The notes under the pieces are model-generated. The model was not told where the DNA came from, did not search any database, and saw nothing but the letters and a program-made list of their open reading frames with translations. Positions 1 to 48,312 of a stretch of DNA of 48,312 nucleotides are shown one piece after another. How positions within the stretch are numbered: the first letter of the stretch is position 1; each line of letters begins with the position of its first letter. This stretch comes from a virus. The stretch is taken from positions 1-48,312 of the IMG/VR virus record IMGVR_UViG_3300027706_000012; one strand, written 5' to 3'. The translations under genes were made by a program, and so were the position numbers.

Positions 1-1006
1 AACGATGATGCAACATCTTGCCGATCTGGAATTTATTAGTGTTGGCTTTAGCTGGTTCTTTTTGTTGCTCAACCGGCTGGCTGAGCCGTTGATGCTGGTG
101 AGTACGCTCTACGCGATTGCCGAGGCGGGTGTGCCTGCGCTCTCTATGGCAGGCCTTCACTTGCTGGCTACCACGATCCTCATTACGTCGCCGGAGATTA
201 TTCTTCCTGGCGCGTTTGTGCTGGCTTCTCAGGAGCGCGCTGCTGGTCGCCCCTACAAGGTCTTATTTGGCATGTGCTGGGCCTTCGTGGGCTTGATGGT
301 CTTTACGCTGGCCTCTTTATTCATCTTCCATTTTGATACAACCTGGCTCTCGGTGTTGATGTGGGCCAGGTGCATTACCTCAGTCAGTTACTCGATTTAT
401 ATCCGTACTCGGTCTCATCATGGTTCCATTGAGCAGGTTCAATTGACTGCCCAACAGACCTTCGAGGAAAAACTTGAGGAGACAGTGAACCAGTTCAACC
501 AGCGACTGGAAGAGGTGCAAAAGACCGTCATTGAACAAGTTCAATCTACCCTTGTTGAGCAGTCTCGGCAACTGGTTCAAGAGGTGTGGCTTGATGCTCC
601 CTTCGTCACTATTGACGAGGTACGATCAGTCATGACTGACGAACTCAAGCCGCTCGTCAGCGGCATTGAGCAATCCGTCAACCATCGCCTGTCGCAGTTC
701 GCCGCCGAGTTCAAACGGGAGCGGCTGACCGAGCAACCTGCTGCCTTGCAACTGCTTCCTGGTCGGTCTGGTCGGCATACAGGGGGTACAGGAGAAATGA
801 AACCTGTTCCGGTGACACCTGTTGAATCAGACCATCCAGATAAACCAGTTCAGGATCGTGTCACCCGGTTCATCCAACAAGAGATGAACCTGGGTCGTAA
901 ACCATCCCTGTCTGAAATCATGAACCATTGCCGGTGTTCAAAAAACACGGCGATCCGGTATCGTCGTGAACTCCTTGGCGAGTTGGTAGGTGAGGAGACA
1001 GCTTGA
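1..1006 (+). CDS. Membrane-anchored coiled-coil protein with C-terminal HTH (3' part; gene starts across the circle join)
   Basis: The reading frame is open from base 2, and its true start is the ATG at 48122 on the other side of the circular join, giving 343 residues. The first 140 or so residues are hydrophobic, with about four predicted membrane segments. A long amphipathic coiled coil follows (about residues 155-260, rich in Q and E), then a linker. A helix-turn-helix-like end contains SLSEIMNHCRCSKNTAIRYR. It closes a cassette with the membrane protein at 45738 and the FtsK-like ATPase at 46290, so a role in DNA transfer or segregation at the membrane is inferred. No family is recognised with certainty. 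Confidence 0.75.
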   Translation, partial: TMMQHLADLEFISVGFSWFFLLLNRLAEPLMLVSTLYAIAEAGVPALSMAGLHLLATTILITSPEIILPGAFVLASQERAAGRPYKVLFGMCWAFVGLMVFTLASLFIFHFDTTWLSVLMWARCITSVSYSIYIRTRSHHGSIEQVQLTAQQTFEEKLEETVNQFNQRLEEVQKTVIEQVQSTLVEQSRQLVQEVWLDAPFVTIDEVRSVMTDELKPLVSGIEQSVNHRLSQFAAEFKRERLTEQPAALQLLPGRSGRHTGGTGEMKPVPVTPVESDHPDKPVQDRVTRFIQQEMNLGRKPSLSEIMNHCRCSKNTAIRYRRELLGELVGEETA

Positions 1007-1269: not shown

Positions 1270-1399
1270 CGGATACCCTCATTTCTATATTAGCACAAAT
1301 AGTCCTTATAATTGACATCGCTCGGTGTCATGTTGATGGTGTCCCTTCTGTAACAGGTCCTGCTATGTATAACACGTTGCACCCATGCGGAGGTGCGAC

Positions 1400-2422
1400 A
1401 TGCTAAATCATCTTGCCGAGACCTTACAGCGATTTGATGGCGTGCTTGGCGAGGGTACAAGCTGCCTGCCCAATACCTTGTTCGCCCACCAGTCTGATCT
1501 GCATCTCAATCCCACTCAGTTCAACCTGGTGCTGCAACTCTTTAGTGTGTGGTGGGACTCCTGGCCTCATCCCCCCATTCGGGCTATTGCCTTTCGCATG
1601 GGGCGCAGTGAGCGATGCATCCAGATGAACCTGCGCAAGCTGGCGCGCCCCCTTCTGGATGCGGAAGGTGTCGAGGTACGCCCTGCATTACTTGAAGTTC
1701 GCCCGCGTCGAACGGAGCGTGGCGACTCGGATACCAATGAGTATGATCTTTCGCCTTTGCTCGCATATCTCTCCCATGTGGTGACTGGTAAGCCGCTTGC
1801 GGAGTGTCAGCAGCCTCTTCTTCATGGCGAGGCTGCTGATAGTCGTCCAGCCTCGATAGATTTCACGACCTTTACAGAAGAGGCCATCGAGGCCCTGCCT
1901 GTGGAACCGGAAGAAACGCGGCGCGTACCTGCTCCACCGTTGCCTTCTGAGCTTGACTCGACAATAGAGAAGCTCTCCAAAGAGTTCGGCGATTATGCCC
2001 ATGTGAAATCCAATAAAAGCCGCTTGTCTCGTCTCTTTGTCAATGCGCAGCCGTATGGCATGGATGAGTCGCTCTGCCTCGCCATGATGGACGAGGTAGC
2101 GGCTGCCACCCGTGAGGCGAAGATCAAGAAGAGGAATGCCGACGGGCGCAAAAATAGGATGCCCTATTTCTTTGGTTTGCTGACGCAATGTTTTGAACGC
2201 TACTGCACTCGTCGCTCGAAGGAGGTCGAGGCAGAGCGCGAGTTTGAGCAACATCACCTGATTAGCAAGGCGTTCCGTCTGATGCCGCGTGAAGCGCAAT
2301 TGCAATATGAGCAAAGCAACTTTGATGAGCGGATCATCGCGCCTTATATCGAGCAGGTTCGTCGCCGTGATGAAGAGAATCGTCGCCAGTGGCAGGAAGA
2401 GGCCCAATATGCCGCTCGATAG
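1400..2422 (+). CDS. Winged-helix replication-initiator-like protein
   Basis: 340 residues. The ATG at 1400 is preferred over 1385 because GGAGGT lies at 1389-1394. The N-terminal part (about residues 30-115) has the layout of the winged-helix domain of plasmid and phage replication initiators: an LFSVWWDSWPHPP turn, the helix SERCIQMNLRKL, then a wing ending in NEYDLSPLL. An acidic linker leads to a second helical domain (residues 190-290) of unknown fold. It is the first gene of the early operon and overlaps the next gene by 14 bases. Role as initiator for the iteron-like array near 44 kb is inferred; a primosome-loading or regulatory role is also possible. Confidence 0.6.
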   Translation: MLNHLAETLQRFDGVLGEGTSCLPNTLFAHQSDLHLNPTQFNLVLQLFSVWWDSWPHPPIRAIAFRMGRSERCIQMNLRKLARPLLDAEGVEVRPALLEVRPRRTERGDSDTNEYDLSPLLAYLSHVVTGKPLAECQQPLLHGEAADSRPASIDFTTFTEEAIEALPVEPEETRRVPAPPLPSELDSTIEKLSKEFGDYAHVKSNKSRLSRLFVNAQPYGMDESLCLAMMDEVAAATREAKIKKRNADGRKNRMPYFFGLLTQCFERYCTRRSKEVEAEREFEQHHLISKAFRLMPREAQLQYEQSNFDERIIAPYIEQVRRRDEENRRQWQEEAQYAAR

Positions 2423-10111: not shown

Positions 10112-10161
10112 GTCCAGTAACCACCCCGTTACCGGACATGAAAGAGAGGTTCAGCAGGTTA

Positions 10162-22075: not shown

Positions 22076-22100
22076 CTTGTTCGGTAGGTATTTCTACCTA

Positions 22101-22167
22101 TTGACGCTAGTGAATCTCGGCAATTACACTGAGTATTCATCAGCTTCGATGTATCGTAGAACGATAC
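22101..22167 (+). promoter_or_regulatory. Promoter/operator region before the receiver gene
   Basis: A TTGACG box near 22101 is followed by a perfect 7-bp dyad GTATCGTAGAACGATAC (22151-22167) just before the ribosome site of the receiver gene. No clear -10 at ideal spacing. Suggests that this gene has its own control inside the late operon. Confidence 0.4.
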
Positions 22168-22190
22168 AAATAAGAAAAGGGGTGCATGGA

Positions 22191-22580
22191 ATGTTGATAG
22201 GAATTGTGGAAGACGATCCTGACCTGAACGAGTTGTACCGCACTGGTCTCTTGCTGGCCGGTCATGAGTCGCGTGGCTGGTATAACGCGGTCGATGCCCT
22301 GCGCGATCTGCTCGGCCTGAAGCTCAACCGCGAGAAGTTGCCGGAGGTGGTAGTTGTCGATTTAAACCTGCCGGGCGGCATCGATGGGGCCGAACTCATC
22401 AAGCGGCTGCGCGAAGAGATTGCACCGCAGGAAGTCCAGTTTGTGCTGATGAGTGGAAACGACCTGGCTGAGCAGCGTTTAAAAGAGCGGCATATCCTCG
22501 ACGTGCCTTTCTTTAAAAAAACGGGCCTGACTCCTTCGGCCTTGCTCAAGGAATGTAAGAAACTGGCGAAAGCCTTGTAG
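22191..22580 (+). CDS. Stand-alone response-regulator receiver domain (CheY-like)
   Basis: 129 residues, AAAGGGG before ATG 22191. Full receiver layout: acidic pair EDDPD at the N-terminus, phospho-acceptor in VVVDLNLPGG, Ser in VLMSGND, and Lys in PFFKKTG. No output domain. Receivers are rare in phage late operons. A possible partner is the LuxR-type HTH protein at 7888, which lacks a receiver; a host histidine kinase would be the input. That pairing is inference. Confidence 0.85.
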   Translation: MLIGIVEDDPDLNELYRTGLLLAGHESRGWYNAVDALRDLLGLKLNREKLPEVVVVDLNLPGGIDGAELIKRLREEIAPQEVQFVLMSGNDLAEQRLKERHILDVPFFKKTGLTPSALLKECKKLAKAL

Positions 22581-30659: not shown

Positions 30660-31178
30660 TTAGATGAGGCTATCGAGATATGCCTCGTAGGGGTCCTGCA
30701 TGTCGTAGGCTTCGGCAGGGTCGGGCTGCTCTGGCTCGCCTTCCTCACCCTCATCCTCGCCGTAGTAGGCTGCCATGCGCTTCATCTCCGCGTCTGATGG
30801 CTGGCCGCCTTCGGCTTCGACCAGCTCGGCAATGAGCTGGTCGAGCTCGGTATAGAACTGTGCAAGCGCCGTTTCGTGCTGCTCTTTGTTGTGGCTGGTG
30901 CCTGCTGCGCAAAGAGCGCAATTCAGGTCCTGCGCGAAACCAGCAAAGAAGAGATTCAGACCTGCGGCGATGCGCGCTTTATGGCTGGCTGCGATAGAGT
31001 CGACATGCTGGCGGCGCGTGTGGAAAACGGCTTTGAGGCAATGCTCGCAGTCGAGGTTGAGATCAAAAGGCTGCGCAACCAGGGCCGCGTGTTGCTCTGG
31101 TGTATGCGCCATTGGCTGCCAAAAGCAGCAATAGCACAGGCTGGAGTAAACGAAGGTCTGAGTCTTGAGAGTGGTCAT
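30660..31178 (-). CDS. Cysteine-rich protein with acidic tail
   Basis: 172 residues from ATG 31178, with AAAGGAA upstream. CEHC and CALC pairs plus an N-terminal CYCC cluster suggest metal binding; residues 130-172 are very acidic (GEDEGEEGEPEQPDPAEAYD). First gene behind the promoter at 31246-31276. An in-frame start MAL of an overlapping leader frame is present at 31227. Confidence 0.55.
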   Translation of the reverse strand: MTTLKTQTFVYSSLCYCCFWQPMAHTPEQHAALVAQPFDLNLDCEHCLKAVFHTRRQHVDSIAASHKARIAAGLNLFFAGFAQDLNCALCAAGTSHNKEQHETALAQFYTELDQLIAELVEAEGGQPSDAEMKRMAAYYGEDEGEEGEPEQPDPAEAYDMQDPYEAYLDSLI

Positions 31179-31245
31179 GAGTGAAATTCCTTTCTTTGAG
31201 GCCCAAGATGGGCGTTTTGAGGGCCATCCGTTTTTTGCCCCTCTG

Positions 31246-31276
31246 TATATAGAACGATTTGGATACGTAAAAGTAA
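31246..31276 (-). promoter_or_regulatory. Leftward promoter, normal copy
   Basis: TTACTT (31276-31271), 17-base spacer, TCTATA (31253-31248). The leader carries GGCAAAAAACGGATGGCCC, which recurs behind the promoter at 29046. This promoter is the reference copy for the adenine-stripped one at 32034-32062. Confidence 0.65.
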
Positions 31277-31386
31277 CGTAAAAATTGGCTAAACTGGCTC
31301 TATTCCTGCATCCATGCCACATTGTTCTCTTGTGTACAGGATGAGGCATGAACCTCTTGTGTAGCGCAAGCAAGGCAAGCACGCCA

Positions 31387-31405
31387 GGGGTGGGGCGGGG
31401 AGGGG
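31387..31405 (+). other. Perfect G-quadruplex motif, copy 1
   Basis: GGGGTGGGGCGGGGAGGGG: four runs of four G with single-base loops. A near-identical motif is at 32235-32253, so the pair brackets the SLOG gene. Both lie on the + strand, the template strand for the leftward transcript. Confidence 0.7.
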
Positions 31406-31441
31406 CGAAACCTGGGGGAAGCACGAACGAACTGGGGACAC

Positions 31442-31473
31442 AAAAAAGCCGCCGACCAGGAAGGCCAGCGGGT
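31442..31473 (-). terminator. Terminator of the SLOG gene
   Basis: On the minus strand a 9-bp stem, CCGCTGGCC with GGTCGGCGG (G-T pairs included), is followed by CTTTTTT. It stands 17 bases after the SLOG stop codon. Confidence 0.6.
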
Positions 31474-31489
31474 CTTTTTTGCGGGGCGA

Positions 31490-31969
31490 TCAGCCCCAAA
31501 GCGAGGGGGCCGACACGCCAGAAGCAGCCGCGCAGGAGCAGGAAACGACGAACACTGGAACGCCCATTTTTTTGGCGAGAGCCACAGAAGCCGCCGAACC
31601 GCGAGAACCGCAGCAGGAAAAGACGACGGCGCAAGAAACCGAGCGCAGCAGCGCAGCCGAGCGAGCAACACCAGCGCCCCGACCGAGCGAGGACCAGGCG
31701 GCAGGGAAGACCGAGACCGACAAACCACGCGAACGGGCCGCAGAGACAGCCAGCGCGTCAGCGCCAGAAGCACCACCGGAGACGACCACCGAACCGGCAG
31801 GCAGGGCCGCAACCAGGGAGCGAACCAGCGAGGCAGGCGCGGAAGGAGACGAACCCCAGGCGCGAGACCCGAGCACCGCGACACGGGAACCAGCCGGAAG
31901 CGAGCGAACGAAAGAAACAGCGGGCGCAAGGGCCGCAGGAACGGAGGCAGAAGAAGAGCAAGAGACCAC
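31490..31969 (-). CDS. SLOG-family (DUF2493/YspA-like) nucleotide-binding-type protein with adenine-free coding strand
   Basis: 159 residues from GTG 31969 (TTG 32020 also in frame). SLOG motifs: RVAVLGSRAW, VVVSGGASGADALAV, VFPAAWSSLGRGAGVARSA, VALAKKMGVPVFVV. Compared with the usual family pattern, charged positions are changed (SRDW to SRAW, RN to RS). Adenine is almost absent from the coding strand, so the protein uses F L S C W P R V A G plus one Asp, two Lys and one Met. The start is A-free with a GGGGG ribosome site at a spacing of 7, and lies 58 bases after the predicted transcription start, as in the normal promoter copy (63). SLOG proteins bind nucleotides or ligands and some act in phage defence; the ligand here is unknown. 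Confidence 0.7.
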   Translation of the reverse strand: MVSCSSSASVPAALAPAVSFVRSLPAGSRVAVLGSRAWGSSPSAPASLVRSLVAALPAGSVVVSGGASGADALAVSAARSRGLSVSVFPAAWSSLGRGAGVARSAALLRSVSCAVVFSCCGSRGSAASVALAKKMGVPVFVVSCSCAAASGVSAPSLWG

Positions 31970-32033
31970 CGGACACCCCCAGAAAGAACGCCCACCCCGC
32001 GCAGGAGGGGCCAGGAACAAAAGCGCATCTACT

Positions 32034-32062
32034 TATAGAACGAGCAGGAAACGGAAAAGTAA
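32034..32062 (-). promoter_or_regulatory. Leftward promoter, adenine-stripped copy, driving the SLOG gene
   Basis: TTACTT (32062-32057), 17-base spacer, TCTATA (32039-32034). In a 31-base alignment with the promoter at 31246-31276, 26 bases agree and the five differences all fall on adenines of the normal copy, replaced by C, T, T, G, C. The A residues in the -35 and -10 hexamers are kept. Confidence 0.75.
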
Positions 32063-32580
32063 CGCGCATAGAAAACAGACCGACCGGACGGAAAAGGCGC
32101 GAAGGCAGGGAAGGCCCGCGACGAAGGAACAACAACACGCGACCAGCCGCGCCACAGCACCCCACCTGTGTTTTCAAAAAGGGAACGAGCGCCGACCAGC
32201 CGCGCCCACAACGCGAAAAGGCGACGGCACGCGAGGGGCGGGGCGGGGAGGGGCGAAGGGAACGAACGGCACGCAGGCAGCCGGAGCGCGACGAGGGCAG
32301 CCGGGCGACAAGCGCGAAGGCGCCAAAAGGAGGGGAACGACACCCGCGCGGCACGAGCAACCAGGCAAAGGAAACAAGAGCAGGGCAGCCGGGCGAAAAG
32401 GCCGCGCGCCGCGAAGCCCCGCCCAAAACGCGCACCAGGCCGCCCGAGACGAGCGGAAACCCACCCAGGCCGGGGCGCAAGACCAAGACGCCGACAAAAA
32501 AACGCCGCGAACGCCGACAACCGCGCAGGAAACAAGAAACGCACAAAGACCCCCACCACCAACAACACAGCGAGCAGCAC
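32063..32580 (-). other. Adenine-free leftward segment without assignable product
   Basis: Three minus-strand frames are open through almost all of it. One ends at a TGA at 32174-32176, one of the few places where A is kept; another reads through LKTQVG there. None matches a known protein to me, and composition (Arg, Cys, Pro, Phe) does not single out a coding frame. It could be an untranslated leader, a second reduced-alphabet gene or a structured RNA. Confidence 0.5.
32235..32253 (+). other. Perfect G-quadruplex motif, copy 2
   Basis: GGGGCGGGGCGGGGAGGGG, one base different from copy 1 at 31387. The identity extends into a following CGAA. Confidence 0.7.
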
Positions 32581-32803
32581 TACAAGAAAAAAAATTGCAT
32601 GTCAAGGACGTAGTGGAATGGAGTGTAGTGGAATGGAATGGAGTGTAGTGGAATGGAGGGAAATGCCGCGTTGTTTCGATGGCGAGAAAGCTTAAGTGTT
32701 GAAAGCGGCATTTCCCGGAATGGAACGGAACGGAATGGAATGGAACGGAACGGAATGGAACGAAGCCGAAGGGTATCCTTGACATGCAATTTTTTTTCTT
32801 GTA
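32581..32803. promoter_or_regulatory. Divergent promoter region built on a 28-bp inverted repeat
   Basis: Perfect arms 32581-32608 and 32776-32803, each containing TTGACA and a T8 tract pointing outward. A second perfect 12-bp pair, GGGAAATGCCGC (32658-32669) and GCGGCATTTCCC (32705-32716), is nested inside. The remaining sequence is a pentamer satellite of GGAAT and GGAAC units on both flanks. Fires towards the adenine-free unit on the left and the methyltransferases on the right. No gene in this 348-base gap. Confidence 0.7.
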
Positions 32804-32928
32804 CCATGTTAAGTGTTGTGGGTGTGGGTCGTCATCACGCTATCATCCCCCTTTTGCGCTGCCACCTTGCCCCTTTTTTCAAAAAAAATTCATGGTGTTT
32901 TTCAACCCTCTTTATACTAAAAGCAAAA

Positions 32929-33741
32929 ATGCTCACCGTTGGTTCACTCTTCACCGGCATCGGCGGCATCGATCTTGGCCTGGAGCAGACTGGTGGCTTT
33001 CGTATTGCCTGGCAGGTTGAAATCTCTCCATATTGTTGTCGCCTTCTTGCTTATCGATGGCCGCATATTCCCCGCTATGGCGACATTTGCCAGCTTGATT
33101 TCTCTCAAATGGAGCCGGTTGATGTGCTGGCTGGTGGCTTTCCGTGTCAGGATGTGAGCCTTGCTAATCGTCGCCGGGAGGGACTTGATGGAGCGCGATC
33201 TGGATTGTGGGGCGAATTTGTGCGTGCCATTGTTGCGCTTCGACCCAGATATGTCCTCGTGGAAAACGTTGACGCCCTGCGTTATGCAGGGACAGCACAA
33301 AAAGCGGCTGCCCCTCTTGGTCGAATACTTGGCGACCTGGCCGGAGTCGGGTATGATGCGGAGTGGTGTCGTTTATCGGCAGCCGCCCTCGGTTACTCCC
33401 ACTATCGCCCCCGTCTCTTCATTATTGCCTACCCCGAAGGCTCACGACGGGAGGCGCTCTTATGTGACATCCCAATGGGCTATTTCACGCAACGAGAAGG
33501 GCCTTCCGTTCAGTTGGATCGGCGTGGGTGCGTACTGGCATCACTTGAGCAAAGCCTACGGCAACCCTCGGTTTTCGGAAGCGATCCTGGGATTCCCTCT
33601 CGACTGGACCGCCTTACCGCCCTCGGAAACTCGGTGATGCCGGAGATGGCTCGTGTGATTGGAGCATGCATTCTTGTCGCAGAAGCAAACGAAGCAAATG
33701 AAACAGAGTCACGAATGGTATACGCCCCCGCGCTACCTTGA
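32929..33741 (+). CDS. DNA cytosine-5 methyltransferase (Dcm type)
   Basis: 270 residues, ATG 32929; a TATACT box only 11 bases upstream and no ribosome site suggest an almost leaderless message. Motif I is GSLFTGIGGIDLGLE, motif IV GGFPCQDVS with catalytic C73, motif VI ENV (112-114), motif VIII RPRLFIIA, motif X LTALGNSVMPEMA. The target-recognition region between VIII and X is short (about 55 residues). Transfers methyl from S-adenosylmethionine to cytosine, likely to protect element DNA from host restriction. A second plausible protein is encoded in another frame of the same DNA. Confidence 0.9.
   Translation: MLTVGSLFTGIGGIDLGLEQTGGFRIAWQVEISPYCCRLLAYRWPHIPRYGDICQLDFSQMEPVDVLAGGFPCQDVSLANRRREGLDGARSGLWGEFVRAIVALRPRYVLVENVDALRYAGTAQKAAAPLGRILGDLAGVGYDAEWCRLSAAALGYSHYRPRLFIIAYPEGSRREALLCDIPMGYFTQREGPSVQLDRRGCVLASLEQSLRQPSVFGSDPGIPSRLDRLTALGNSVMPEMARVIGACILVAEANEANETESRMVYAPALP
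33161..33637 (+). CDS. Overprinted frame inside the cytosine methyltransferase gene
   Basis: 158 residues entirely inside the Dcm gene, in a different frame. SSWKTLTP, EYLATWPESGMMRSGVVYRQ, SSLLPTPKAHDGRRS and NPRFSEAILGFPLDWTALPP match a recurrent signature of phage Dcm-associated sequence (WPxSGM, LPTPxAxDG, GFPxxWT), which in other phage methylases lies just before motif X. Both frames therefore look family-like. It may be translated on its own or be a frame-shifted relic; no strong ribosome site seen. Confidence 0.4.
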   Translation: MLIVAGRDLMERDLDCGANLCVPLLRFDPDMSSWKTLTPCVMQGQHKKRLPLLVEYLATWPESGMMRSGVVYRQPPSVTPTIAPVSSLLPTPKAHDGRRSYVTSQWAISRNEKGLPFSWIGVGAYWHHLSKAYGNPRFSEAILGFPLDWTALPPSETR

Positions 33742-34261
33742 GGTAGTGCGTCAGCTTCTGGGCGTGATTGATCTGGACCCTGCAAGCTGCGCGGAGGCAA
33801 ACACACTCGTTCAGGCTCGCTGCTTCTATGATCGAGAGATGGATGGGCTAATGAGGTTGTGGCCTGGACGAGTCTATCTGAATCCTCCCTATGGCAAGTA
33901 TGGCTCATCCTCGCAGCAGGGGCGTTGGATGGCGAAGCTACGAGAGCAGTTTGAGGCTGGTATCACAGTGGAGGCGGTGGCGCTGGTGAATGCGGCGACG
34001 GATGCGAAATGGTTTGCTCCGCTCTGGCGTTACTCTCTCTGCTTTGTCGATCATCGTATCAACTTCATTGATGGCTCTGGCGGGTGCGCGGGGAGATTAT
34101 CTCAACGCGCAAGCTGTTTTGTGTATCTTGGTACTCGCTCCGATTCCTTCGCTCGTCTCTTTCGCCCTTTCGGCCATGTGGTGTGTCCTGCTGTATCGTT
34201 TGAGGAACGCGAGAACGGTCGGGTGCGCGTCAGCTTTTCAAGAACCCGCCGCAGCGGATAG
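33698..34261 (+). CDS. Phage DNA N6-adenine methyltransferase
   Basis: 187 residues from ATG 33698, overlapping the Dcm gene by 44 bases (TTG or GTG codons further up are possible). EWYTPPRYLEVVRQLLGVID and LDPASC are the S-adenosylmethionine-side motifs; YLNPPYG is the catalytic (D/N)PPY motif; FVDHRINFIDGSG follows as in the phage Dam family (PF05869 type). Protects DNA or marks it. The 3' end lies in the first copy of a 55-bp repeat. Confidence 0.85.
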   Translation: MKQSHEWYTPPRYLEVVRQLLGVIDLDPASCAEANTLVQARCFYDREMDGLMRLWPGRVYLNPPYGKYGSSSQQGRWMAKLREQFEAGITVEAVALVNAATDAKWFAPLWRYSLCFVDHRINFIDGSGGCAGRLSQRASCFVYLGTRSDSFARLFRPFGHVVCPAVSFEERENGRVRVSFSRTRRSG

Positions 34262-35244: not shown

Positions 35245-36726
35245 TTAGTATCGGCTCTCCCCCGGATACATCTTCTCCGGCACAACAAGCGTACTTTCCG
35301 CAGGCTTCATCACTCCCTCGACGGCTTCAGTCGTTAAGGCCAGGCTCATCAAGAAATCATCATGGCCTTCACCGGCTGCCACATAAAAATCAATGATCTC
35401 CGGCGCTGGCAACCTGTACCTCGCTTTCCTGAGTTGCGCCCAACATTCCTCTGCTATCTCTTGCGGCGCTCCCCCTTGCGCGTACAACTTCAATCTCCCT
35501 GAATTTATCATCCCCAGGACCTGGAATCCTAATCTGCTTTTCGATGGCCGCGAGAACTTGAAGGCCTCTACTCGCTCCTCGCCCCATTTGTCAATCAACA
35601 AGGAAGCCAGCCCTGCACCCTCGCCCGTTGCATCCACCACCAATCTTTTGATATTCCACCTGGCTACATAGTCACAGACCGCCGCATATTGCTCGACGTG
35701 ATGCATGCCGGTCCACCAGGCTTGATGAACAATCTCAAGCACTGGTAGCATCAACTCGTTGAAACTCACACGCCCGATGGTCAGCACCGTTGAGTCTCGT
35801 TTGGTGTTAACCTTCGTTGGATCAGCCGGATCGACTCGTTCCTCGCCACCAACATCCAGGCCTGCGACATAGAAACCTGTGCCTTCGGTGGCTTCACTTT
35901 CCCAGGAGTGAACATCCTGTATCATGGTGCGCTGCAGGTCATTCAAGAAGTACCCAGCTCCGGATATGGGCCTCAAGAAATACTGGGTCTGTATGGCAAT
36001 GTGATTTTCACCGAGTCGGCGTATCTCATCCTCAACAAACTTGCGGTAGTTCTCATTCACACTGGCGGGAGTTGTCCAGTCGAATTCAAAGTGCCGCTTT
36101 TCTCCCGTTTGCGCTTCAATCTCCAGGTTGACCGCCCTTTGCCTCGCGAGCAGCGTATCGTCACTCCACGCGGTGCCATACATGACCGTAGTCGAACGGG
36201 TTGTACTTGCCATTGGTCGAAAATCACGATCAAACTTCTCCGGTAGGACATCCTGGGCTTCATCCACTTCGAGCAGGATGGAGGCCGTTGCCCCTACCAC
36301 ATTGCTATCTGGATCGGCACTAAAGAACTGCACAAATGGGCCAACATGCCGCTTTAAGAGTCCCTTGTCTGCGCGGGGAGCCAGGCCAATGACGCCGTAA
36401 CTGGTCCAGATGCGCCCGGATGTGACCTTTGTTTCGAGCATGGACATTAAGCGGCGGTGTGAGTTGGTGATTTGCGGTGAGAAGGTTGGGGCGCATTTGA
36501 CGATACACCCTGACGGACGAGTGAAAAGTAAAAAGGCTTCAAGGACTGCTGACAACTGGTTTTTTCCGGCCTGACGGGAGAGCATGACGGTGATGATGTG
36601 GCCAAGATTGTTATTGATGCTGTGAATAATGGCGTTGGCAATGATGGCCTGATAGGGGTACAACGGCTTGCGAAGAATCACTCGCGCAAATTTCTCAATT
36701 GGCGTTTCCTGCTGCTGCGGTTGCAT
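35245..36726 (-). CDS. terL: Terminase large subunit
   Basis: 493 residues from ATG 36726. ATPase: Walker A MLSRQAGKNQ (about 48-57), Walker B ILLEVDEAQD (150-159), coupling motif near GTAWSDD. Nuclease: acidic residues in AGLDVGGEE (D291), VVDATGEG (D365) and EGHDDFLMSLAL (D456/457). All motor and RNase H-like nuclease parts are present. It packages DNA through the portal encoded on the opposite strand at 11417. No small terminase gene is next to it. Confidence 0.9.
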   Translation of the reverse strand: MQPQQQETPIEKFARVILRKPLYPYQAIIANAIIHSINNNLGHIITVMLSRQAGKNQLSAVLEAFLLFTRPSGCIVKCAPTFSPQITNSHRRLMSMLETKVTSGRIWTSYGVIGLAPRADKGLLKRHVGPFVQFFSADPDSNVVGATASILLEVDEAQDVLPEKFDRDFRPMASTTRSTTVMYGTAWSDDTLLARQRAVNLEIEAQTGEKRHFEFDWTTPASVNENYRKFVEDEIRRLGENHIAIQTQYFLRPISGAGYFLNDLQRTMIQDVHSWESEATEGTGFYVAGLDVGGEERVDPADPTKVNTKRDSTVLTIGRVSFNELMLPVLEIVHQAWWTGMHHVEQYAAVCDYVARWNIKRLVVDATGEGAGLASLLIDKWGEERVEAFKFSRPSKSRLGFQVLGMINSGRLKLYAQGGAPQEIAEECWAQLRKARYRLPAPEIIDFYVAAGEGHDDFLMSLALTTEAVEGVMKPAESTLVVPEKMYPGESRY

Positions 36727-36730
36727 AAGG

Positions 36731-37240
36731 CTAGGCCTCGACGAGTTCAATCGCCACGAGATAGGAGAGTCCGGGGGCTGCGCCCGTTGCCAGTGGAACC
36801 TGTTGGGTGTGCAGGTCCATGATGGTTTCGATGTAGTTATCGAAATGTACCGCGACGGCGACTTTCCCGAGAGGATCTGTGAAGTTGATGGTCTGCCCGA
36901 CCGAGTTGATGTATGAGGCGCGTAGGGCATCTCTATACTGCTGGCCGGTCATGTTGGTAGAGCTGCCATCATATCCTACCAGGTCGTTGATGCATAGGAT
37001 AATCATGCTCCAGATGCGCTTACCAGGGCCGAGATCAACGTAGGATTCGCCGCCATCTGCCCTCACGGTGGCTTTGCGCACGCGGGGCTGGTGCATTTTG
37101 TAGGAGCCTGGCCGGACAAAGTAGCCGGTGCCATCCAGGATCAGCTCGCAGTTCTGCCCGATGGTGAAGCTTCCGCCCCCTCCACCGCCTCCGCCCGAGC
37201 TGCTAGATGAGGATGCAATGAGAAGCTCGAATCTGCTCAC
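36731..37240 (-). CDS. Virion protein of unknown function with Ser/Gly linker
   Basis: 169 residues. A homopolymeric stretch, SSSSSSGGGGGGGG (residues 10-23), links a short N-terminus to a beta-rich domain (CELILDGTGYFVRPGSYKMH; TINFTDPLGKVAVAVHFDNY). The repeats may vary in length by slippage. Position between tail spike and terminase suggests a tail or neck part. Confidence 0.55.
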   Translation of the reverse strand: MSRFELLIASSSSSSGGGGGGGGSFTIGQNCELILDGTGYFVRPGSYKMHQPRVRKATVRADGGESYVDLGPGKRIWSMIILCINDLVGYDGSSTNMTGQQYRDALRASYINSVGQTINFTDPLGKVAVAVHFDNYIETIMDLHTQQVPLATGAAPGLSYLVAIELVEA

Positions 37241-37257: not shown

Positions 37258-38592
37258 CTACCAACCCGTTTGGGCGATCCAACCAAAGTTGACAGTTGCA
37301 GCAGGATTGGCATCTACATGCAGGGTGAAAGAGGTGCTGGTGATGGTATCAATCCAGAAGAAATGGGCACTGCCGAGTGAGTTCTGAGGCGTCACAGAGA
37401 TTTGCTCGAGTGTGGGTGTTAAAGCTAACCCATGATTGACCACCACACTCGTATTGCCTGAAGTAATCTGCGCCGTTCCGTGATTCTCGGTCACGAAAAT
37501 AGCCTTCGAGTTGACCGAGTCGTAGCCGACATTCTGCCGGACGCGGCATCCGGCGGGCTGGCTGCTCACAAAGTAGATCGGCGCGGTAAGCGTGCCGCTA
37601 TTTGCCTTCACATTGAGCGTATTGCCTTCGACCAGGCAGTAGGTCGCGCCCGTGTCAATCTTGATAAATGAATTGGTCTTTGGCGTGGCTGACGCATCAC
37701 TCTCAAAGTAGTTGCTCCGGATCACACACCTGGTCGCGTTCAAGTAAATCCCGTTGATACTATTGGCCGTTCCGCCACTGGCCTGATATCCCACGTTGAG
37801 CGCGATATTACCTTCGATGATGGTATCGGCTGCGCTGGCGTTGATTTGAACACAGTTCCCACCATTGCCATCAAAAATGTTGCCGATGATGCGGCACTGC
37901 AGGCCATCCAGCTTGAAGACGCCCATGCCGTTCACAAACGAATTCCCGATATAATCGGTCAGCCCATTTTGATCGTATATGTGGAACCCATAGACCGTGT
38001 CGTTCGGATTGCCATTGTTCTCGAAGTGATTGCAGTAGACATGATTCTCATCGGTGTTGATTAACCGGAGGCCGTTGCCATAGGCGTTCGTGCCTGTGGT
38101 CGTATTCATCCCACCTTCGATGAAACAATTAGAAATCCTGTTCTGATACCCAAAGTCGGAGACATCGGCAGTAAGCAGGATTCCAGCTTGCCAGGGATTG
38201 TGAATCCACACAAAGTCAATGAGGCACCTGCGCCACTTGTAGCCATAGATGCCGCCTGATGCTGCGGTCTGGTTGGCCGCATTGCAATCCAGCTTGAGAT
38301 TGCAGATGGTTGTCCCGAGCTGGCTGCCCGTCGTGTTCTTGATAATCCAGTCATTCGCCCCATTCTTGAGCTTGAGGACAGAAGACCAGCCGCCGCCCAT
38401 GATGACCAATGAGCCGCTATAGGCGCTAATATCGACATGTGACACCAGGAACGTATGGTTCGGCGGAAAGTAGAGGACGCCGCCCGTTGAGGTTGGAATG
38501 TTGGCGAGGGCTGTAGCGATGGCGGCGGTATCGTCGGTCACACCATCACCGGCTGCGCCGAACTGTGTCACATCGACAAAAACGGTGGTCAT
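37258..38592 (-). CDS. Tail-spike-like parallel beta-helix protein (pectate-lyase superfamily)
   Basis: 444 residues. The N-terminal signature VDVTQFGAAGDGVTDDTAAI is typical of pectate-lyase-3 tail spikes; about 12 turns of right-handed beta-helix follow (NCFIEGGMN, NHFENNGN, NIFDGNGG, NYFESDAS, NTLNVKAN). A small C-terminal sandwich ends the protein. Polysaccharide binding or depolymerisation at the host surface inferred. Confidence 0.8.
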   Translation of the reverse strand: MTTVFVDVTQFGAAGDGVTDDTAAIATALANIPTSTGGVLYFPPNHTFLVSHVDISAYSGSLVIMGGGWSSVLKLKNGANDWIIKNTTGSQLGTTICNLKLDCNAANQTAASGGIYGYKWRRCLIDFVWIHNPWQAGILLTADVSDFGYQNRISNCFIEGGMNTTTGTNAYGNGLRLINTDENHVYCNHFENNGNPNDTVYGFHIYDQNGLTDYIGNSFVNGMGVFKLDGLQCRIIGNIFDGNGGNCVQINASAADTIIEGNIALNVGYQASGGTANSINGIYLNATRCVIRSNYFESDASATPKTNSFIKIDTGATYCLVEGNTLNVKANSGTLTAPIYFVSSQPAGCRVRQNVGYDSVNSKAIFVTENHGTAQITSGNTSVVVNHGLALTPTLEQISVTPQNSLGSAHFFWIDTITSTSFTLHVDANPAATVNFGWIAQTGW

Positions 38593-42749: not shown

Positions 42750-43895
42750 TTATAAATTCCGGAAGGATTGTTCCAACAGTTTGATGCCGGGATCAGCAGT
42801 TGCCAGTAATCCTTGCAGGTAGCGGTCGGTTGTTGCCAGGGATTCATGGAGCAAGAGCTTCTGCAAGGAACGGATATCCTGCCCGGCGGCATAACGCTGC
42901 TGTGTGGCTGTGTGCCGCCAGGAATGAATGGAGATCTTCTCCGCGTCGAGTCCTGCCTTTCGCGCATACTGCTTCATGAGAGCGTAGATGGTATTGCTCG
43001 ATAAGGGTTTATCTCGCGTTGGAAGATCAGCCGCTTTACATCCTGGGCCTTGATGTGCTGCCACAAAGAGCGGTGAGGTGGGCCGCATGTGTTTGAGACG
43101 GCCTGATGCTTCGAGATAGAGATCAAGCGCATCCTTCGCGGGTTGCGGTAATTCCGCTAAGAATTCCTGCTCGCCGTGTCCCTTGCTTTTGAAACGGTAG
43201 AGCCATCCCATGTGACGCCCGCCGCCCTCTTCGACAATGACGCCATATTCGAGATCTCCCCATCTGAGTCGAGCGATTTCTTCTCTGCGCCTGGCTGTCC
43301 AGAAGTAAAACAGGAAGATGGCGCGATCTCTTAGGCCCTGCACCGTGTCGCGGGGGATGACCGCGAAAAAGCGAGAGATGTCCTCGAACGGGATGGCGTG
43401 ATAATTGAGCGCGCGTTTGCTAAAGTGCATGCCTGCGGTCGGATTCGCCTTGTTGAATAACGCGATCTCCTCATCTTCATCCGATGAGTCGAGCAGGAAG
43501 CTAGAGGCATAATCATAGAAGCTGCGTAGGACAGCCAGGCGTACATCACTGGTAGCGGGCGATGGCGGTTTGCTTTTGCCTCGCCCACGTGGTGAAAGCG
43601 GCTCCTGGTAGACGAAAGCTTCAATGTCTCTTCGTCTCACGCGCTCCGGGTGCGCTGCGCGTTCTCCCTGGAAGAATCGTATGAGCGTGGAACTGTACAC
43701 CCTGACCGATGATTGGCTGTGGCTCCTGGCGTAAATCTGGGTCATGAACTGGTGGAAGCAACTCTCCCAATGGCTTCCGGCTGGAAATGGCGCTGGTGGC
43801 ATCTCAAACGCGGTAGAGGTCACAGGTTTCCTTCTCCCCCAAAAAAGATGAGGATGGCCGTTCTGTGCCTCGCTACACATCCGGGCCATCCTCAC
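42750..43895 (-). CDS. Tyrosine recombinase/integrase
   Basis: 381 residues from GTG 43895; ATG 43889 and 43880 are alternatives. SAM-like N-terminal domain (about 45-135), then catalytic residues: R204 in TARRREEIARLRW, K238 in RFKSKGHGE, H324-x-x-R327 in HSWRHTA, H350 in LLHESLATTDRY and nucleophile Y359. Complete set. A TATAAT box lies at 43912-43907, about 12 bases from the start, and the repeat array lies directly upstream. Integration into the host, or dimer resolution, is inferred. Confidence 0.85.
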   Translation of the reverse strand: MRMARMCSEAQNGHPHLFWGRRKPVTSTAFEMPPAPFPAGSHWESCFHQFMTQIYARSHSQSSVRVYSSTLIRFFQGERAAHPERVRRRDIEAFVYQEPLSPRGRGKSKPPSPATSDVRLAVLRSFYDYASSFLLDSSDEDEEIALFNKANPTAGMHFSKRALNYHAIPFEDISRFFAVIPRDTVQGLRDRAIFLFYFWTARRREEIARLRWGDLEYGVIVEEGGGRHMGWLYRFKSKGHGEQEFLAELPQPAKDALDLYLEASGRLKHMRPTSPLFVAAHQGPGCKAADLPTRDKPLSSNTIYALMKQYARKAGLDAEKISIHSWRHTATQQRYAAGQDIRSLQKLLLHESLATTDRYLQGLLATADPGIKLLEQSFRNL

Positions 43896-43938: not shown

Positions 43939-44243
43939 GATTCACCACCCCCACCCTGACTAGTTGGGGGTGGTGAATCTTTTGTTCTCCAATTAACCAG
44001 GGGGTGGTGAATCTTTTGCAAGAACATGTTGAGGGGTGGTGAATCTTTGTTGTTTTTGCAGGAAAAAGATTCACCACCCTGCGCTGAAATGGTGCAGAAG
44101 TTTCACCACCCCTACCCGTGAATGGTGAAAAAGTTTCACCACCCCCTGGATAAAACAACACGAAGTTTCACCACCCTCTTCAGGCTGGCGATGGGTTGCG
44201 ATGAGGAAATAAGCCAATCAAAAGGGGGTGGTGAAACTTTTTG
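43939..44243. repeat. Iteron-like array: nine copies of a GGGTGGTGAA(T/A)C motif
   Basis: Copies near 43939, 43966, 44000, 44033, 44063, 44098, 44128, 44163 and 44224. Two subtypes: GGTGGTGAATCTTTT (first five) and GGTGGTGAAACTTTT (last four), in both orientations. Spacing 25-60 bases. Typical of a plasmid replication origin, a partition site or a recombination regulatory site. The region 43896-44459 has no gene. Confidence 0.8.
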
Positions 44244-44459: not shown

Positions 44460-44744
44460 CTATGAGAATTGAGCATGTTCCTTTCGTATTACTATAAGAA
44501 ATCTCACCTGCTCCTCGGTGTCATTGGTCGGGAATGAGCCGAGAGGTTGTTTGCAATTGGCACAGCGAACAACGGTTTGTTCGCTGTGCTGCTGGAAAGT
44601 GACATCCAGCGCTGGGAGGTCGCCGCCCCACAGATGGCGAATCACGTCCGGGCCTTCGTGCTGAAAGTCCGGGTCCTGAAATGGGTTGCCTGAAAGTGAC
44701 TGTCGAATTTTTTGTTCAGCGGTAAGCTGCTCGTTCTCAAACAT
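44460..44744 (-). CDS. Small protein with CxxC
   Basis: 94 residues, overlapping the upstream gene by 8 bases. VVRCANCKQPLGSF gives one Cys pair only. Acidic. Unknown function; operon partner of the HTH-GNAT gene. Confidence 0.5.
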   Translation of the reverse strand: MFENEQLTAEQKIRQSLSGNPFQDPDFQHEGPDVIRHLWGGDLPALDVTFQQHSEQTVVRCANCKQPLGSFPTNDTEEQVRFLIVIRKEHAQFS

Positions 44745-45567
44745 CTAAGTATCTCCCGGTTAAATTGGCAAGCCGCTCGACTCCGGCTTCGTCTAATGGA
44801 AACACGTAGGCCAGTCTGCCAGGGGCGATAGACTTACCTTTCATCAGGTGAAAGCCGATCTTTCTCACGAGCCGATCACCCTCTGGCGTGGCTGTCACCG
44901 TATATAAATGCCGAATGTCATAATTATTGGCTCTGAGATCCAATATTTTGTTCGCCATTCTTTGCACGATTAACCCGGCATACAGTCGTCGCTCATGATC
45001 GGGAAGGGTGGGATCGACGGCCATCACGTCGATATACACGTCAAATTGCTCCAGGCGAGTAAACTTGAGGACGTGCCGCAACTTGATTTCTCGCTCGATG
45101 CGCTTGCCAGTTAAGAGGTCATCAAGAAATCCTGGGGTAAAGCGGAACATGGAAACGTAGCCCACCACCCGGCTTCCGACCTTCAAACTCCAAAAGGTGA
45201 ACTCGCTCTTTTGCTGGAACGCAATGCGTTCAGGCAAGGGCGTAATGAACTCCTCGCCGAAACACGCGATGCCAATCCGAAGTTCTTCCGCCTGGTCTCC
45301 GGGGGTTGAGCGGGAGAAATAGATATGGTCACGAATGAACCCGTATTCATCGTGTGTCGCCCTGGCAAGCGCATCGATATCTCGTTTAGGGTAGACTCTC
45401 GTTTTCTTCCACGGATGCTGATACCAGGGGATTTTGTTTTCATTGACCCGTCTATAGAACATGCCCTTATCGAGTCCGAGAACTCTCTGGGCATCTTTAG
45501 CTTCATAGAAATGGCGCTCAATCTCCTCTCGTGTGAGCGCGTTTGGGTGTGTTTCATCTTCGGTCAT
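44737..45567 (-). CDS. HTH - GNAT acetyltransferase-like fusion protein
   Basis: 276 residues from ATG 45567 (GGAG upstream). N-terminal HTH of excisionase/MerR type: AKDAQRVLGLDKGMFYRRVN then HPWKKTRVYPKRDIDALA. C-terminal GNAT-like fold (residues 85-276): VGYVSMFRFTP, DVYIDVMAVDPTLPDHERRL, LYTVTATPEGDRLVRKIGFH. A DNA-binding acetyltransferase could sense acetyl-CoA or modify a partner. Divergent from the transfer-like cassette. Confidence 0.65.
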   Translation of the reverse strand: MTEDETHPNALTREEIERHFYEAKDAQRVLGLDKGMFYRRVNENKIPWYQHPWKKTRVYPKRDIDALARATHDEYGFIRDHIYFSRSTPGDQAEELRIGIACFGEEFITPLPERIAFQQKSEFTFWSLKVGSRVVGYVSMFRFTPGFLDDLLTGKRIEREIKLRHVLKFTRLEQFDVYIDVMAVDPTLPDHERRLYAGLIVQRMANKILDLRANNYDIRHLYTVTATPEGDRLVRKIGFHLMKGKSIAPGRLAYVFPLDEAGVERLANLTGRYLDV

Positions 45568-45631
45568 GAGGATAGCTCCGTTGGTGAAGTTCCTGTATTG
45601 TAACACATAGACACCCCTGTGACTCTCTCTC

Positions 45632-45660
45632 TTGACAAATTGGCAAACATCATTTATAAC
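45632..45660 (+). promoter_or_regulatory. Promoter of the transfer-like cassette
   Basis: TTGACA (45632-45637), 17-base spacer, TATAAC (45655-45660): close to consensus. Divergent from the HTH-GNAT gene. Confidence 0.75.
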
Positions 45661-45699
45661 CATAGTATACCGTTGTAACTCTATGAAGTCAACCGTCTG

Positions 45700-45720
45700 C
45701 TTTTGCCGAGCAAGTCAAAC
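45700..45720 (+). promoter_or_regulatory. Shared leader motif, copy 2
   Basis: TTTTGCCGAGCAAGTCAAAC, the partner of 1248-1269, about 40 bases downstream of the -10 box. Confidence 0.5.
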
Positions 45721-45737
45721 TGAGAGGGGTGTCTATC

Positions 45738-46265
45738 GTGTCTACTACGACCCAACAAACCACGACGACGATTATCAAAAACCGTAGTCCGCTCTTGCTA
45801 ATCCTCGTGGGAGGAATGGCTTTTCTGTTCTGGCTGCTTGCCAGCATGCTCCAAATTCAAACATCTGAGGCCTTCATTTTGCAGGGACCTGCGGTGTCTC
45901 TTGCGCCGAATTGGGCGATCCTTCGTCAGCCGCTTGATCTAGTGCAGGGTCGTCTGTCTGTGGATGTGGCAAAGTCGGTGATGTGGGGGTGGGGAATCGA
46001 GTTGATCTATCTGATCTGTATTGTGGGCTACGAGGTTGCTCATGAAAGCGTCAAGGCATCGAATAAGTCCCTGGCGAAGTGGTTCCGTACCGGTCTGATT
46101 GCGCTCATTGCGCTGGATGCCTATACCGATTACACCTATGGTAATCTGGCAAGTGGCCCCTGGGGTCAATTCGCCTTTGCGCTGATTACCTCGTTTATCG
46201 TGGCCTTCTTCGGTATTGTTGGCGTTCGTCTGATTGAACACGCGGTAAAAGAGTGGAATAGCTAG
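45738..46265 (+). CDS. Four-helix membrane protein
   Basis: 175 residues from GTG 45738, spaced 8 bases from GAGAGGGG (GTG 45729 is too close). Four hydrophobic segments (about 18-40, 78-104, 118-134, 145-166). Thr-rich N-terminus. It directly precedes the FtsK-like gene, so a membrane docking partner for that ATPase is inferred. Confidence 0.65.
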   Translation: MSTTTQQTTTTIIKNRSPLLLILVGGMAFLFWLLASMLQIQTSEAFILQGPAVSLAPNWAILRQPLDLVQGRLSVDVAKSVMWGWGIELIYLICIVGYEVAHESVKASNKSLAKWFRTGLIALIALDAYTDYTYGNLASGPWGQFAFALITSFIVAFFGIVGVRLIEHAVKEWNS

Positions 46266-46289
46266 CCTATCTGGTGGGGTGTATCAATC

Positions 46290-47921
46290 ATGGACGAGAT
46301 CCGCGAAATAACGCCTGAGGATTCCGAGGCTCGCCGCTATGCTGCCTTTCGTCGCCCGTCTCCTTTGATGGTCGGCGGTGGGACGATGCTTGCTGCCGGC
46401 ATTGTTGATCTGCTGGCGCATCTTGGCCCGACTGGCCTGGTCATTGGTGGGATTGCCGCCTTCATTGCCTCACAGCATGTTCCTGATGCGGTTGAGCAGG
46501 TGAGTGGAGCGCTGCCCGTCGCGCTCCCTCGCCGTTCCAATGCTGTTCATACTGCTGATGGGAAACGTACCTTGCTTGATAGAGCGCTTGGTCGTCATCC
46601 AGTGGTCGTGTCTTCTGAAATACAGGAGCCTGATGATACGACGCTGGTTGAGGAGGAGGATGAGGAGGATGAATATCAATTACACCTGGGAGAGGAAGCG
46701 ATTTTTGCTTCCTCGGCTCTCCTTCGAGCGGGACCGTCCATCAAGCGGATTACTGTTGAGCAGGCAGTAGCGCATATCGAGCGCAATAGTTATGAGGCCT
46801 ATCTTGGCCGGTCGCTGACCCGACCGGGAAATCCGGCGGTCAAATTCAATTTCTATAAACGGCATCTCAAGCTGATTGGTGCCTCGCAGCATGGTAAATC
46901 GAGTATGGCGGCGGCCCTGCTCGACATGATTACTCGGACGCATGATCCGCGCCATGTGCAGATCGCGCTGTTAGATATCGAGAACAAAACGGGGAATCTT
47001 TTCGCGCATCTGCCCCACGTAGCGCGTGTGCGCAAGCATGGCGAGACGATTCAGTTGCATGCCACCAATTATGACCAGGTGCTTGAGCATCTGACACACC
47101 TGGTCTCGCTGATTGAATACCGGTATACGCTCTCGGAAGAGGAACTGGATCGTCAACCTGTGGTGATTGTCTACCTGGAAGAATTCATCGATCTCAAAGA
47201 TCATTTCAAGCTGCGCATCGATGCGGTCGAGCGTTCCGAGAAAGACCAGGCCAAACAAGAGTATGCGCAGTTGGTCTACTGTATCAAGCAGATTGCGCGC
47301 CGTGGCCTCAAAGTCTATGTCCAGTTATTGATGTGCGCCCAGGTTGATTATCGAGATGATGATCTGCAGGAAGCGCTGGTGAATGTCACGAGTGGCCTTT
47401 CCTTCTGTGTGCGTGTGTCGGCAGCGCAGGCAGCCGGGTTCTATCAGACCGAGTTGCTGACTCGCAACGCGAAAGAGGATATGGTTGGTCAGGCTGTGGT
47501 AGAGATGCCTGATTGCAAAGATCTCATCCTGGCTCCCGATTTCGACTTGAAAGCTCGCCTGAAGATACACGCGCAGGCAGTCGCGCAGGTGGAACCGCTT
47601 GTGGCACGTCAAGCGGTGAAAGAACGTGATGATACGCCTGAACTGTCCACTCCGATTCAGAATCCGGCAAAGATCACGATCCTGGCAGCTCGTAGTGGCG
47701 CAAAGCCACAGCCTCGCTTGCAGGATGCGATTGCTTGCTGGAATGAACTGGTAGAGGCTGGTCAAAATCCATCGAGGAATAATCTCCAGCAGGCGCTTCT
47801 CGCGAAAGGGTTTGAATGCCGCGAGAACTGGGCGCGCAAATTCTACGAGGACATTCGCGAGATGCTTGCCGCTGAATCAGCATCATCGTCTTCTGGTGAG
47901 GAAGTGGCTGCAGGTGGGTAG
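46290..47921 (+). CDS. FtsK/TraB-like DNA translocase
   Basis: 543 residues. Two membrane segments (about 26-62), an acidic linker (EEEDEEDEY near 121-129), then a RecA-like motor: Walker A GASQHGKSS (197-205), ALLDIENKTG strand, Walker B VVIVYLEEF (291-299), and sensor-type helix QIARRGLKVYVQLLMCAQ. The C-terminal 70 residues form a winged-helix-like end (SRNNLQQALLAKGF, NWARKFYEDIREM). This order (membrane, motor, DNA-recognition wing) is that of actinobacterial TraB conjugation translocases and FtsK. Conjugal transfer or segregation of the element is inferred. Confidence 0.75.
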   Translation: MDEIREITPEDSEARRYAAFRRPSPLMVGGGTMLAAGIVDLLAHLGPTGLVIGGIAAFIASQHVPDAVEQVSGALPVALPRRSNAVHTADGKRTLLDRALGRHPVVVSSEIQEPDDTTLVEEEDEEDEYQLHLGEEAIFASSALLRAGPSIKRITVEQAVAHIERNSYEAYLGRSLTRPGNPAVKFNFYKRHLKLIGASQHGKSSMAAALLDMITRTHDPRHVQIALLDIENKTGNLFAHLPHVARVRKHGETIQLHATNYDQVLEHLTHLVSLIEYRYTLSEEELDRQPVVIVYLEEFIDLKDHFKLRIDAVERSEKDQAKQEYAQLVYCIKQIARRGLKVYVQLLMCAQVDYRDDDLQEALVNVTSGLSFCVRVSAAQAAGFYQTELLTRNAKEDMVGQAVVEMPDCKDLILAPDFDLKARLKIHAQAVAQVEPLVARQAVKERDDTPELSTPIQNPAKITILAARSGAKPQPRLQDAIACWNELVEAGQNPSRNNLQQALLAKGFECRENWARKFYEDIREMLAAESASSSSGEEVAAGG

Positions 47922-47932
47922 GTAGGTGTTCA

Positions 47933-48008
47933 GGTAGGTAGGTGGGTGGGTGACTGTAAGACGAGCGGGAAAATGGGTGTATTCCAGTCACCCACCCACC
48001 TACCTACC
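47933..48008. repeat. 24-bp perfect inverted repeat of GGTA/GGTG units
   Basis: Arms 47933-47956 and 47985-48008 are exact inverse complements; loop of 28 bases. One arm is G-rich (GGTAGGTAGGTGGGTGGGTG) and could fold as a quadruplex; together they could form a cruciform. It starts 12 bases after the stop of the translocase gene, a position like the clt transfer locus next to tra genes of Streptomyces plasmids. Confidence 0.75.
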
Positions 48009-48082
48009 TACCTACCCAGGCTCATTAATCACCTTGCATGAGTCGATGTGATGCAATCGTTAAACAAACAGAAGCGTTTTAT

Positions 48083-48100
48083 CGTTCGTTCGTTCGTTCG
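48083..48100 (+). repeat. CGTT tetranucleotide repeat
   Basis: Four and a half tandem CGTT units just before the ribosome site of the membrane/HTH gene. Possible slippage-variable leader or protein-binding site. Confidence 0.6.
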
Positions 48101-48121
48101 TCTTGGAAGGGATAGGGAATT

Positions 48122-48312
48122 ATGTCAATCGTAGCTCAACCCAAAAAAACGATGATGCAACATCTTGCCGATCTGGAATTTATTAATGTTGGCTTTAGCT
48201 GGTTCTTTTTGTTGCTCAACCGGCTGGCTGAGCCGTTGATGCTGGTGAGTACGCTCTACGCGATTGCCGAGGCGGGTGTGCCTGCGCTCTCTATGGCAGG
48301 CCTTCACTTGCT
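48122..48312 (+). CDS. Start of the membrane/coiled-coil/HTH protein (continues at base 2)
   Basis: ATG 48122 after GGAAGGG. It encodes MSIVAQPKKT and then continues in the same frame as base 5 of the window. The overlapped portion repeats residues 11-63 with one change, Asn here for Ser at the other end. Confidence 0.75.
   Translation, partial: MSIVAQPKKTMMQHLADLEFINVGFSWFFLLLNRLAEPLMLVSTLYAIAEAGVPALSMAGLHL
48148..48312 (+). repeat. Terminal redundancy with 1-165 (circular molecule)
   Basis: 165 bases match 1-165 at an offset of 48147, with one mismatch (A at 48186, G at 39). The simplest reading is a circular molecule of 48,147 bp assembled slightly past its own start. A genuine direct terminal repeat is less likely because a gene spans the join. 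Confidence 0.85.

Follow-up and report, generated by a model that had tools for sequence, protein, structure and literature searches.

The described systems closest to the locus reported here are the transfer and spreading modules of the Streptomyces plasmids pIJ101, pWTY27 and pSVH1, in which the genes follow the order TraB, SpdA and DUF2637/SpdB; the pump is a membrane ATPase of the FtsK superfamily with a C-terminal HTH, and after it comes a membrane protein with a coiled coil and an HTH. Spd proteins are very diverse; SpdB2 of pSVH1, a membrane protein that forms oligomers, binds dsDNA as well as TraB, and spd genes, spdA2 among them, also influence stability (PMC4170104). The clt site of pWTY27 comprises 16 bp inside traA and 159 bp downstream, with direct and inverted repeats that are bound by TraA (PMC3583192).

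A cassette similar to these modules in order and architecture is present in the window, that is, the whole stretch of DNA analysed (IMG/VR record IMGVR_UViG_3300027706_000012, 48,312 nt). There, it is part of a packaging phage, whereas the modules of pIJ101, pWTY27 and pSVH1 reside on plasmids. The layout gives a hint, no more, that viral DNA might pass from cell to cell without being packaged as well.

The phage and its genome

Terminase, portal (E 1.7e-42), head protease/major head protein (E 1e-71 to the best named family), tail protein, holin and integrase are all encoded, and by these genes we are dealing with a genuine tailed phage (Caudoviricetes), which bears out the preliminary description of a packaging phage. 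Genes that matter for the discussion of its life style are:

35245-36930, minus strand: large terminase (tblastn matches to annotated phage terminases; Terminase_6C)
42750-43895: tyrosine integrase
10078-11010: serine recombinase
1385..2422, plus strand: 345-aa HTH protein, candidate plasmid-type replication initiator

Positions 1-165 and 48148-48312 differ by one mismatch (99.4% identity over 165 bp). Because its ends are near-identical, the genome is in all probability present in full length, either as a circle or with terminal redundancy, despite being classed as linear in IMG/VR; from the shared ends it also follows that the third gene of the cassette is not truncated and that the genes at the two ends should be joined. 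The phage is probably temperate since it carries an integrase together with the plasmid-type initiator candidate. In its N-terminal half the latter is approximately 31% identical to a plasmid protein, the only one annotated on that 2.3-kb plasmid, and because of this resemblance the prophage may replicate as a circle. In having integrase, replication initiator (here a candidate) and FtsK/SpoIIIE-type pump on one element the phage is like the AICEs of the pSAM2 and SLP1 types; these, however, lack the capsid genes that the phage has, and the initiator candidate gave no match to RepSA, RepAM or Prim-Pol in the searches made. The closest plasmid match of the integrase is to a Chloroflexota plasmid (32.9%), which is only a hint of a link of the phage to this group, and a search of that plasmid itself gave no match; if the host were a mycelial member of the Chloroflexota, Streptomyces-like spread would make sense.

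Elsewhere in the genome, 3050-4957 encodes an exonuclease (RNase_T, of the DNA polymerase exonuclease type) and, after it, a protein resembling polynucleotide kinase/phosphatase, and 21930-22580 a protein with a response-regulator receiver domain, directly upstream of a tail gene. A C5-cytosine methyltransferase and a Dam-type methyltransferase follow one another at 32638-34261, possibly as an anti-restriction pair. The region 31001-33000, which precedes the C5-methyltransferase gene, is strongly strand-asymmetric (AT skew 0.41 with high GC) and holds a 421-aa Arg/Lys/Pro-rich ORF as well as repeated GGAATGGAA-type units.

Layout of the cassette and its membrane proteins

The cassette consists of a promoter, a membrane protein, an ATPase, a repeat region and a protein with membrane, coiled-coil and HTH parts; it sits beside the plasmid-type replication gene candidate and is arranged as are the genes for transfer and spreading on Streptomyces plasmids:

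44737..45663, minus strand: divergent 308-aa protein, candidate regulator (HTH_17 and GNAT-like segments, both weak)
45607..45736: perfect 12-bp inverted pair, ATAGACACCCCT (45607-45618) and AGGGGTGTCTAT (45725-45736), candidate operator
45632..45660, plus strand: near-consensus promoter, TTGACA-17 bp-TATAAC, from direct reading of the sequence
45729..46265, plus strand: 178-aa membrane protein with three hydrophobic segments
46290..47921, plus strand: FtsK/SpoIIIE-family ATPase, 543 aa (PF01580)
47913..48016: GGTA/GGTG array with a 25-bp perfect inverted repeat, candidate cis site, reaching into the 3′ end of the ATPase gene
48122..48312, plus strand: 5′ end of the Spd-like gene, which continues at the window start
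1..1006 (ORF 5-1006), plus strand: remainder of the Spd-like gene, with hydrophobic segments, a coiled coil and an HTH at the C-terminus

That a membrane protein, an ATPase, an inverted repeat and a membrane/HTH protein lie in a row had been proposed before, and both the ORFs and the repeat were confirmed. The consensus promoter proposed for them can be read directly as near-consensus (TTGACA at 45632-45637 and TATAAC at 45655-45660, 17 bp between), but the automatic promoter scan, which is stricter in that it demands a T as the sixth base of the -10 box, omits this site and lists neighbouring weaker ones instead, with no excess over shuffles. The 12-bp inverted pair brackets this divergent (intergenic) promoter region. 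The HTH_17 and GNAT-like Pfam matches of the divergent 308-aa protein are both below the cut-off; the place of its gene is korA-like by comparison with pIJ101, where the tra gene likewise faces a divergent regulator, GntR.

The 178-aa protein (hydrophobic segments at aa 22-40, 83-101 and 148-166) had no significant match in sequence searches. Its gene is an extra one upstream of the ATPase, whereas the plasmid modules have SpdA between pump and SpdB. The gene after the ATPase, once joined across the ends (48122 to 1006), encodes a 343-aa product with N-terminal membrane helices, a coiled coil (judged from the sequence) and a C-terminal HTH (a Pfam match below the cut-off). This protein appears to have the architecture of SpdB/DUF2637 in common but not the sequence: the profile probability to SpdB/DUF2637 is <1%, and there is no DUF2637 Pfam match. 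The missing similarity weighs little because of the diversity of Spd proteins mentioned above.

The motor and its relatives in phages

By its match to PF01580 (35.8 bits, E 7.6e-9, cut-off 24) the ATPase is a member of the FtsK/SpoIIIE superfamily. Its Walker A motif is GASQHGKS, its Walker B-like motif VVIVYLEEF, and a hydrophobic segment is present near the N-terminus (aa 41-59). The AlphaFold model of the whole protein, made from a two-row alignment, has a mean pLDDT of 39.5; in the model of the C-terminal domain (mean pLDDT 80.8) a three-helix HTH is predicted. The winged helix that had been suggested for this domain is plausible, with weak winged-helix matches to the model; the FtsK gamma domain is not listed in the structure search with this domain, an absence that proves nothing. 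A role of the ATPase in packaging was dropped since a separate large terminase (35245-36930) exists.

The preliminary description had called the ATPase FtsK/TraB-like, and the two halves of this label fared differently. In profile-profile comparison the motor matches FtsK with a probability of 97.8%, the first domain of EccC with 95.9% and TraB with 68-74%, and in a maximum-likelihood tree the TraB clade (82/88) excludes this ATPase as well as its relative in a second phage (see below); the two form a long branch of their own, the placement of which is not fixed (52/62). On present evidence, the ATPase thus appears to be an isolated branch of the FtsK superfamily outside the TraB family, although the reference sets of the tree were small and mostly actinobacterial, and, with these and a branch so long, its falling outside TraB is no proof of a separate origin. 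From chromosomal FtsK/SpoIIIE, its best profile match within the common superfamily, the phage ATPase differs in being shorter and in lying in an operon with two membrane proteins. Weak profile matches to HerA (E 0.0014) and to EccC (E 7e-9, far below the cut-off) could be taken to indicate a defence module or one resembling a T7SS; as such scores reflect the common motor fold only, and neither a nuclease partner nor an ESX substrate gene was found adjoining the ATPase, we consider this highly improbable.

Full-length and motif scans of IMG/VR yielded one true relative of the ATPase (the motif-matched loci L057 and L058 are outside this count); L004, L018, L019, L021 and L056 were rejected as relatives after these scans. 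A profile made from the two sequences gave no more than weak matches among 246 Actinomycetota genomes (best E 5.7e-6), and most of the open frames matched were about as long as FtsK. The relative is encoded by a 58.8 kb phage (IMGVR_UViG_3300021344_000002, hereafter G001). It is 54% identical to the window ATPase over 307 aa, by far the best conserved gene between the two phages, matches PF01580 above the cut-off of 24 (32.3 bits) and keeps the Walker A motif, so that the two read GASQ(H/R)GKS; a hydrophobic segment above threshold was not found at its N-terminus. The gene order in G001 is identical, with a three-helix membrane protein (P0010, the counterpart of the 178-aa protein, with similar spacing of the segments), the ATPase and a membrane/HTH protein. 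Apart from these, one full-length match (36%, to the protein of window 37258-38592) and short stretches were obtained, and packaging and structural genes of the two phages are mostly unrelated. Since the same trio is found in otherwise unlike phages, the cassette recurs as a unit in different phages.

Genuine TraB proteins are also encoded by phages. A comparison of pIJ101 Tra with phage records led to Streptomyces phages of the genus Woodruffvirus (43-46% identity over approximately 80% of the protein), and their pumps are nested with pIJ101 in the tree (100/99); by sequence, the pumps of YDN12, Xkcd426 and Geonosis belong to TraB proper, within the pIJ101 clade. Close upstream of TraB lie gene 70 of YDN12 and gene 76 of Xkcd426, the products of which are membrane proteins with four helices and an HTH at the C-terminus; this predicted architecture is that of SpdB, and the family is listed as unknown in PHROGs (phrog_16651):

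YDN12, L059:4540-7965: TraB and 4TM-HTH region
Xkcd426, L060:4106-7851: TraB and 4TM-HTH region

Like the window phage, these are packaging phages with a pump of the FtsK superfamily and, in YDN12 and Xkcd426, a 4TM-HTH protein nearby; unlike it, they have a genuine TraB, located at the right genome end. The combination of a packaging phage with a TraB-type transfer system had been put forward as a notable hybrid; going by the sequences deposited in GenBank, it has precedents in the databases, and the cassette described here, which recurs in phages, is a new form of a module whose kind is known. No paper on TraB/Spd modules in phages was found in the literature searched, which does not imply that there is none.

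Geonosis is described as virulent, and from its TraB homologue comes another interpretation, namely that the pump has a lytic function in that it moves phage DNA, or helps to replicate it, within the cell or mycelium, with virion-free spread through cross-walls. The authors of the Geonosis study suggested that the FtsK-like protein might serve in replication, and the plaques of the phage grow from 4 to 38 mm2 (PMC11536984); the PHROG category of such pump genes, morons and host takeover, would also fit. As growing plaques have many causes, and as the integrase-bearing window phage is probably temperate, we regard this interpretation as quite improbable.

The repeats and the function of the module

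The arms of the inverted repeat (47932-47956 and 47985-48009, 28 nt between) are perfect and consist of GGTA/GGTG units as had been described, but measure 25 bp each and not 24. They form the longest perfect inverted repeat of the whole window; when the whole window was simulated 40 times with a first-order Markov model, the longest to arise was 12 bp. The predicted hairpin is very stable (z = -7.6 as DNA and -6.5 as RNA, with 0 shuffles as stable); its matches to Rfam microRNAs are far below the gathering scores and were dismissed as chance. GGTA/GGTG units begin at 47913, within the final codons for the ATPase (its stop codon, TAG, is at 47919-47921), and the repeat is therefore placed as clt of pWTY27, across the 3′ end of the pump gene. 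In this respect the comparison to clt holds. Two observations speak against it. The 8-mer of pSVH1 TraB, GACCCGGA, does not cluster in this genome (4 scattered copies in 48 kb), and no inverted repeat was found at the equivalent place beside the G001 ATPase. The longest one of G001, 29 bp and perfect, is located within an initiator-like gene 2.2 kb upstream of the ATPase, where, together with four repeats spaced by 22 bp, it occupies coding sequence at 51977-52098 (L014:11977-12098); by sequence, this has the appearance of an origin embedded in an initiator gene. The claim of a conserved transfer site is thereby weakened, and an origin remains an alternative. It is quite conceivable, if on balance somewhat doubtful, that the repeat of the window is no transfer site but acts as an RNA hairpin separating two operon genes, or as a replication origin, and is unconnected with the ATPase, which would be compatible with the other readings of the cassette. 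An RNA hairpin of such stability would fit, as would the situation in G001; however, since no T run follows, the repeat does not have the form of an intrinsic terminator, and a 25-bp hairpin made of 4-bp units, in an array extending over a stop codon, would be unusual as an operon spacer.

A second array is found on the stretch that separates the integrase gene from ORF 44460-44744:

43941..44242: GGGTGGTGAA(T/A)C, nine copies, some in each orientation and most at distances of 32-35 bp, which may be an origin, a centromere or an operator array

This regular, iteron-like array near the integrase bears on the possibility that the pump serves vertical inheritance only, segregating or clearing a circular prophage-plasmid across the division septum as FtsK/SpoIIIE do with a chromosome, with the array as a centromere-like site and no transfer involved. 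Neither a relaxase (PF03432) nor VirB4 (PF12846) was matched in the window phage or in G001, and no ParA gene was found in either; this fits a relaxase-free dsDNA pump, and segregation stays the strongest rival. Besides the array and the lack of ParA, the highest profile similarity of the motor, which is to chromosomal FtsK, the plasmid-type initiator candidate and the effect of spd genes on stability are in line with it. Yet segregation of the FtsK type needs no dedicated membrane partners, two of which are kept in both phages, and the integrase points to a prophage that is able to integrate as well; segregation alone seems to us unlikely.

The explanation we prefer, tentatively and with slightly less than even confidence, is a dsDNA-translocation/spreading module analogous to TraB/Spd which would serve the unpackaged prophage or phage genome. 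It is favoured by the PF01580 matches above the cut-off and the three-gene order kept in both phages, by the TraB-SpdA-SpdB order, the position of clt in pWTY27 and the binding of dsDNA and TraB by SpdB2, and by the adjoining initiator candidate, the lack of relaxase and VirB4 and the pairs of TraB and 4TM-HTH proteins in Woodruffvirus. It is weakened by a motor nearer to FtsK/EccC, by the missing similarity to SpdB and, in G001, by an ATPase without a clear N-terminal hydrophobic segment and by the absence of the inverted repeat. Beyond the genes, their order, the motor family, the repeat and the recurrence in G001, which were observed, we infer the following course. The ATPase would be anchored in the membrane by its N-terminus and form a hexameric DNA pump, which would load via its C-terminal HTH at a site in cis, for which the GGTA/GGTG inverted repeat is the likeliest candidate; the two membrane proteins may form or anchor a channel, at which the HTH of the third protein would hold the DNA, and the divergent HTH protein probably represses the operon via the paired operator. 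As substrate we envisage the phage genome in its circular, unpackaged form, maintained by the neighbouring plasmid-type initiator, and the pump would drive this circle through the septum or a contact site into the neighbouring compartment or cell. The proposal of a TraB transfer cassette was thus right in the layout and in the probable mode of action; as a family assignment it was, on present evidence, wrong.

It is a more far-reaching idea, and one we hold to be rather unlikely, that phages, probably those of mycelial or filamentous hosts, spread naked dsDNA by means of a separately evolved FtsK pump with Spd-like partners as an alternative to virions. As culturable Streptomyces phages carry TraB beside 4TM-HTH genes, it can be tested at once in laboratory strains. 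If it is true, one and the same genome could spread in virions and, besides, as unpackaged dsDNA, transduction and conjugation-like spread would be joined in a single element, and filamentous bacteria would face a second route of phage infection.
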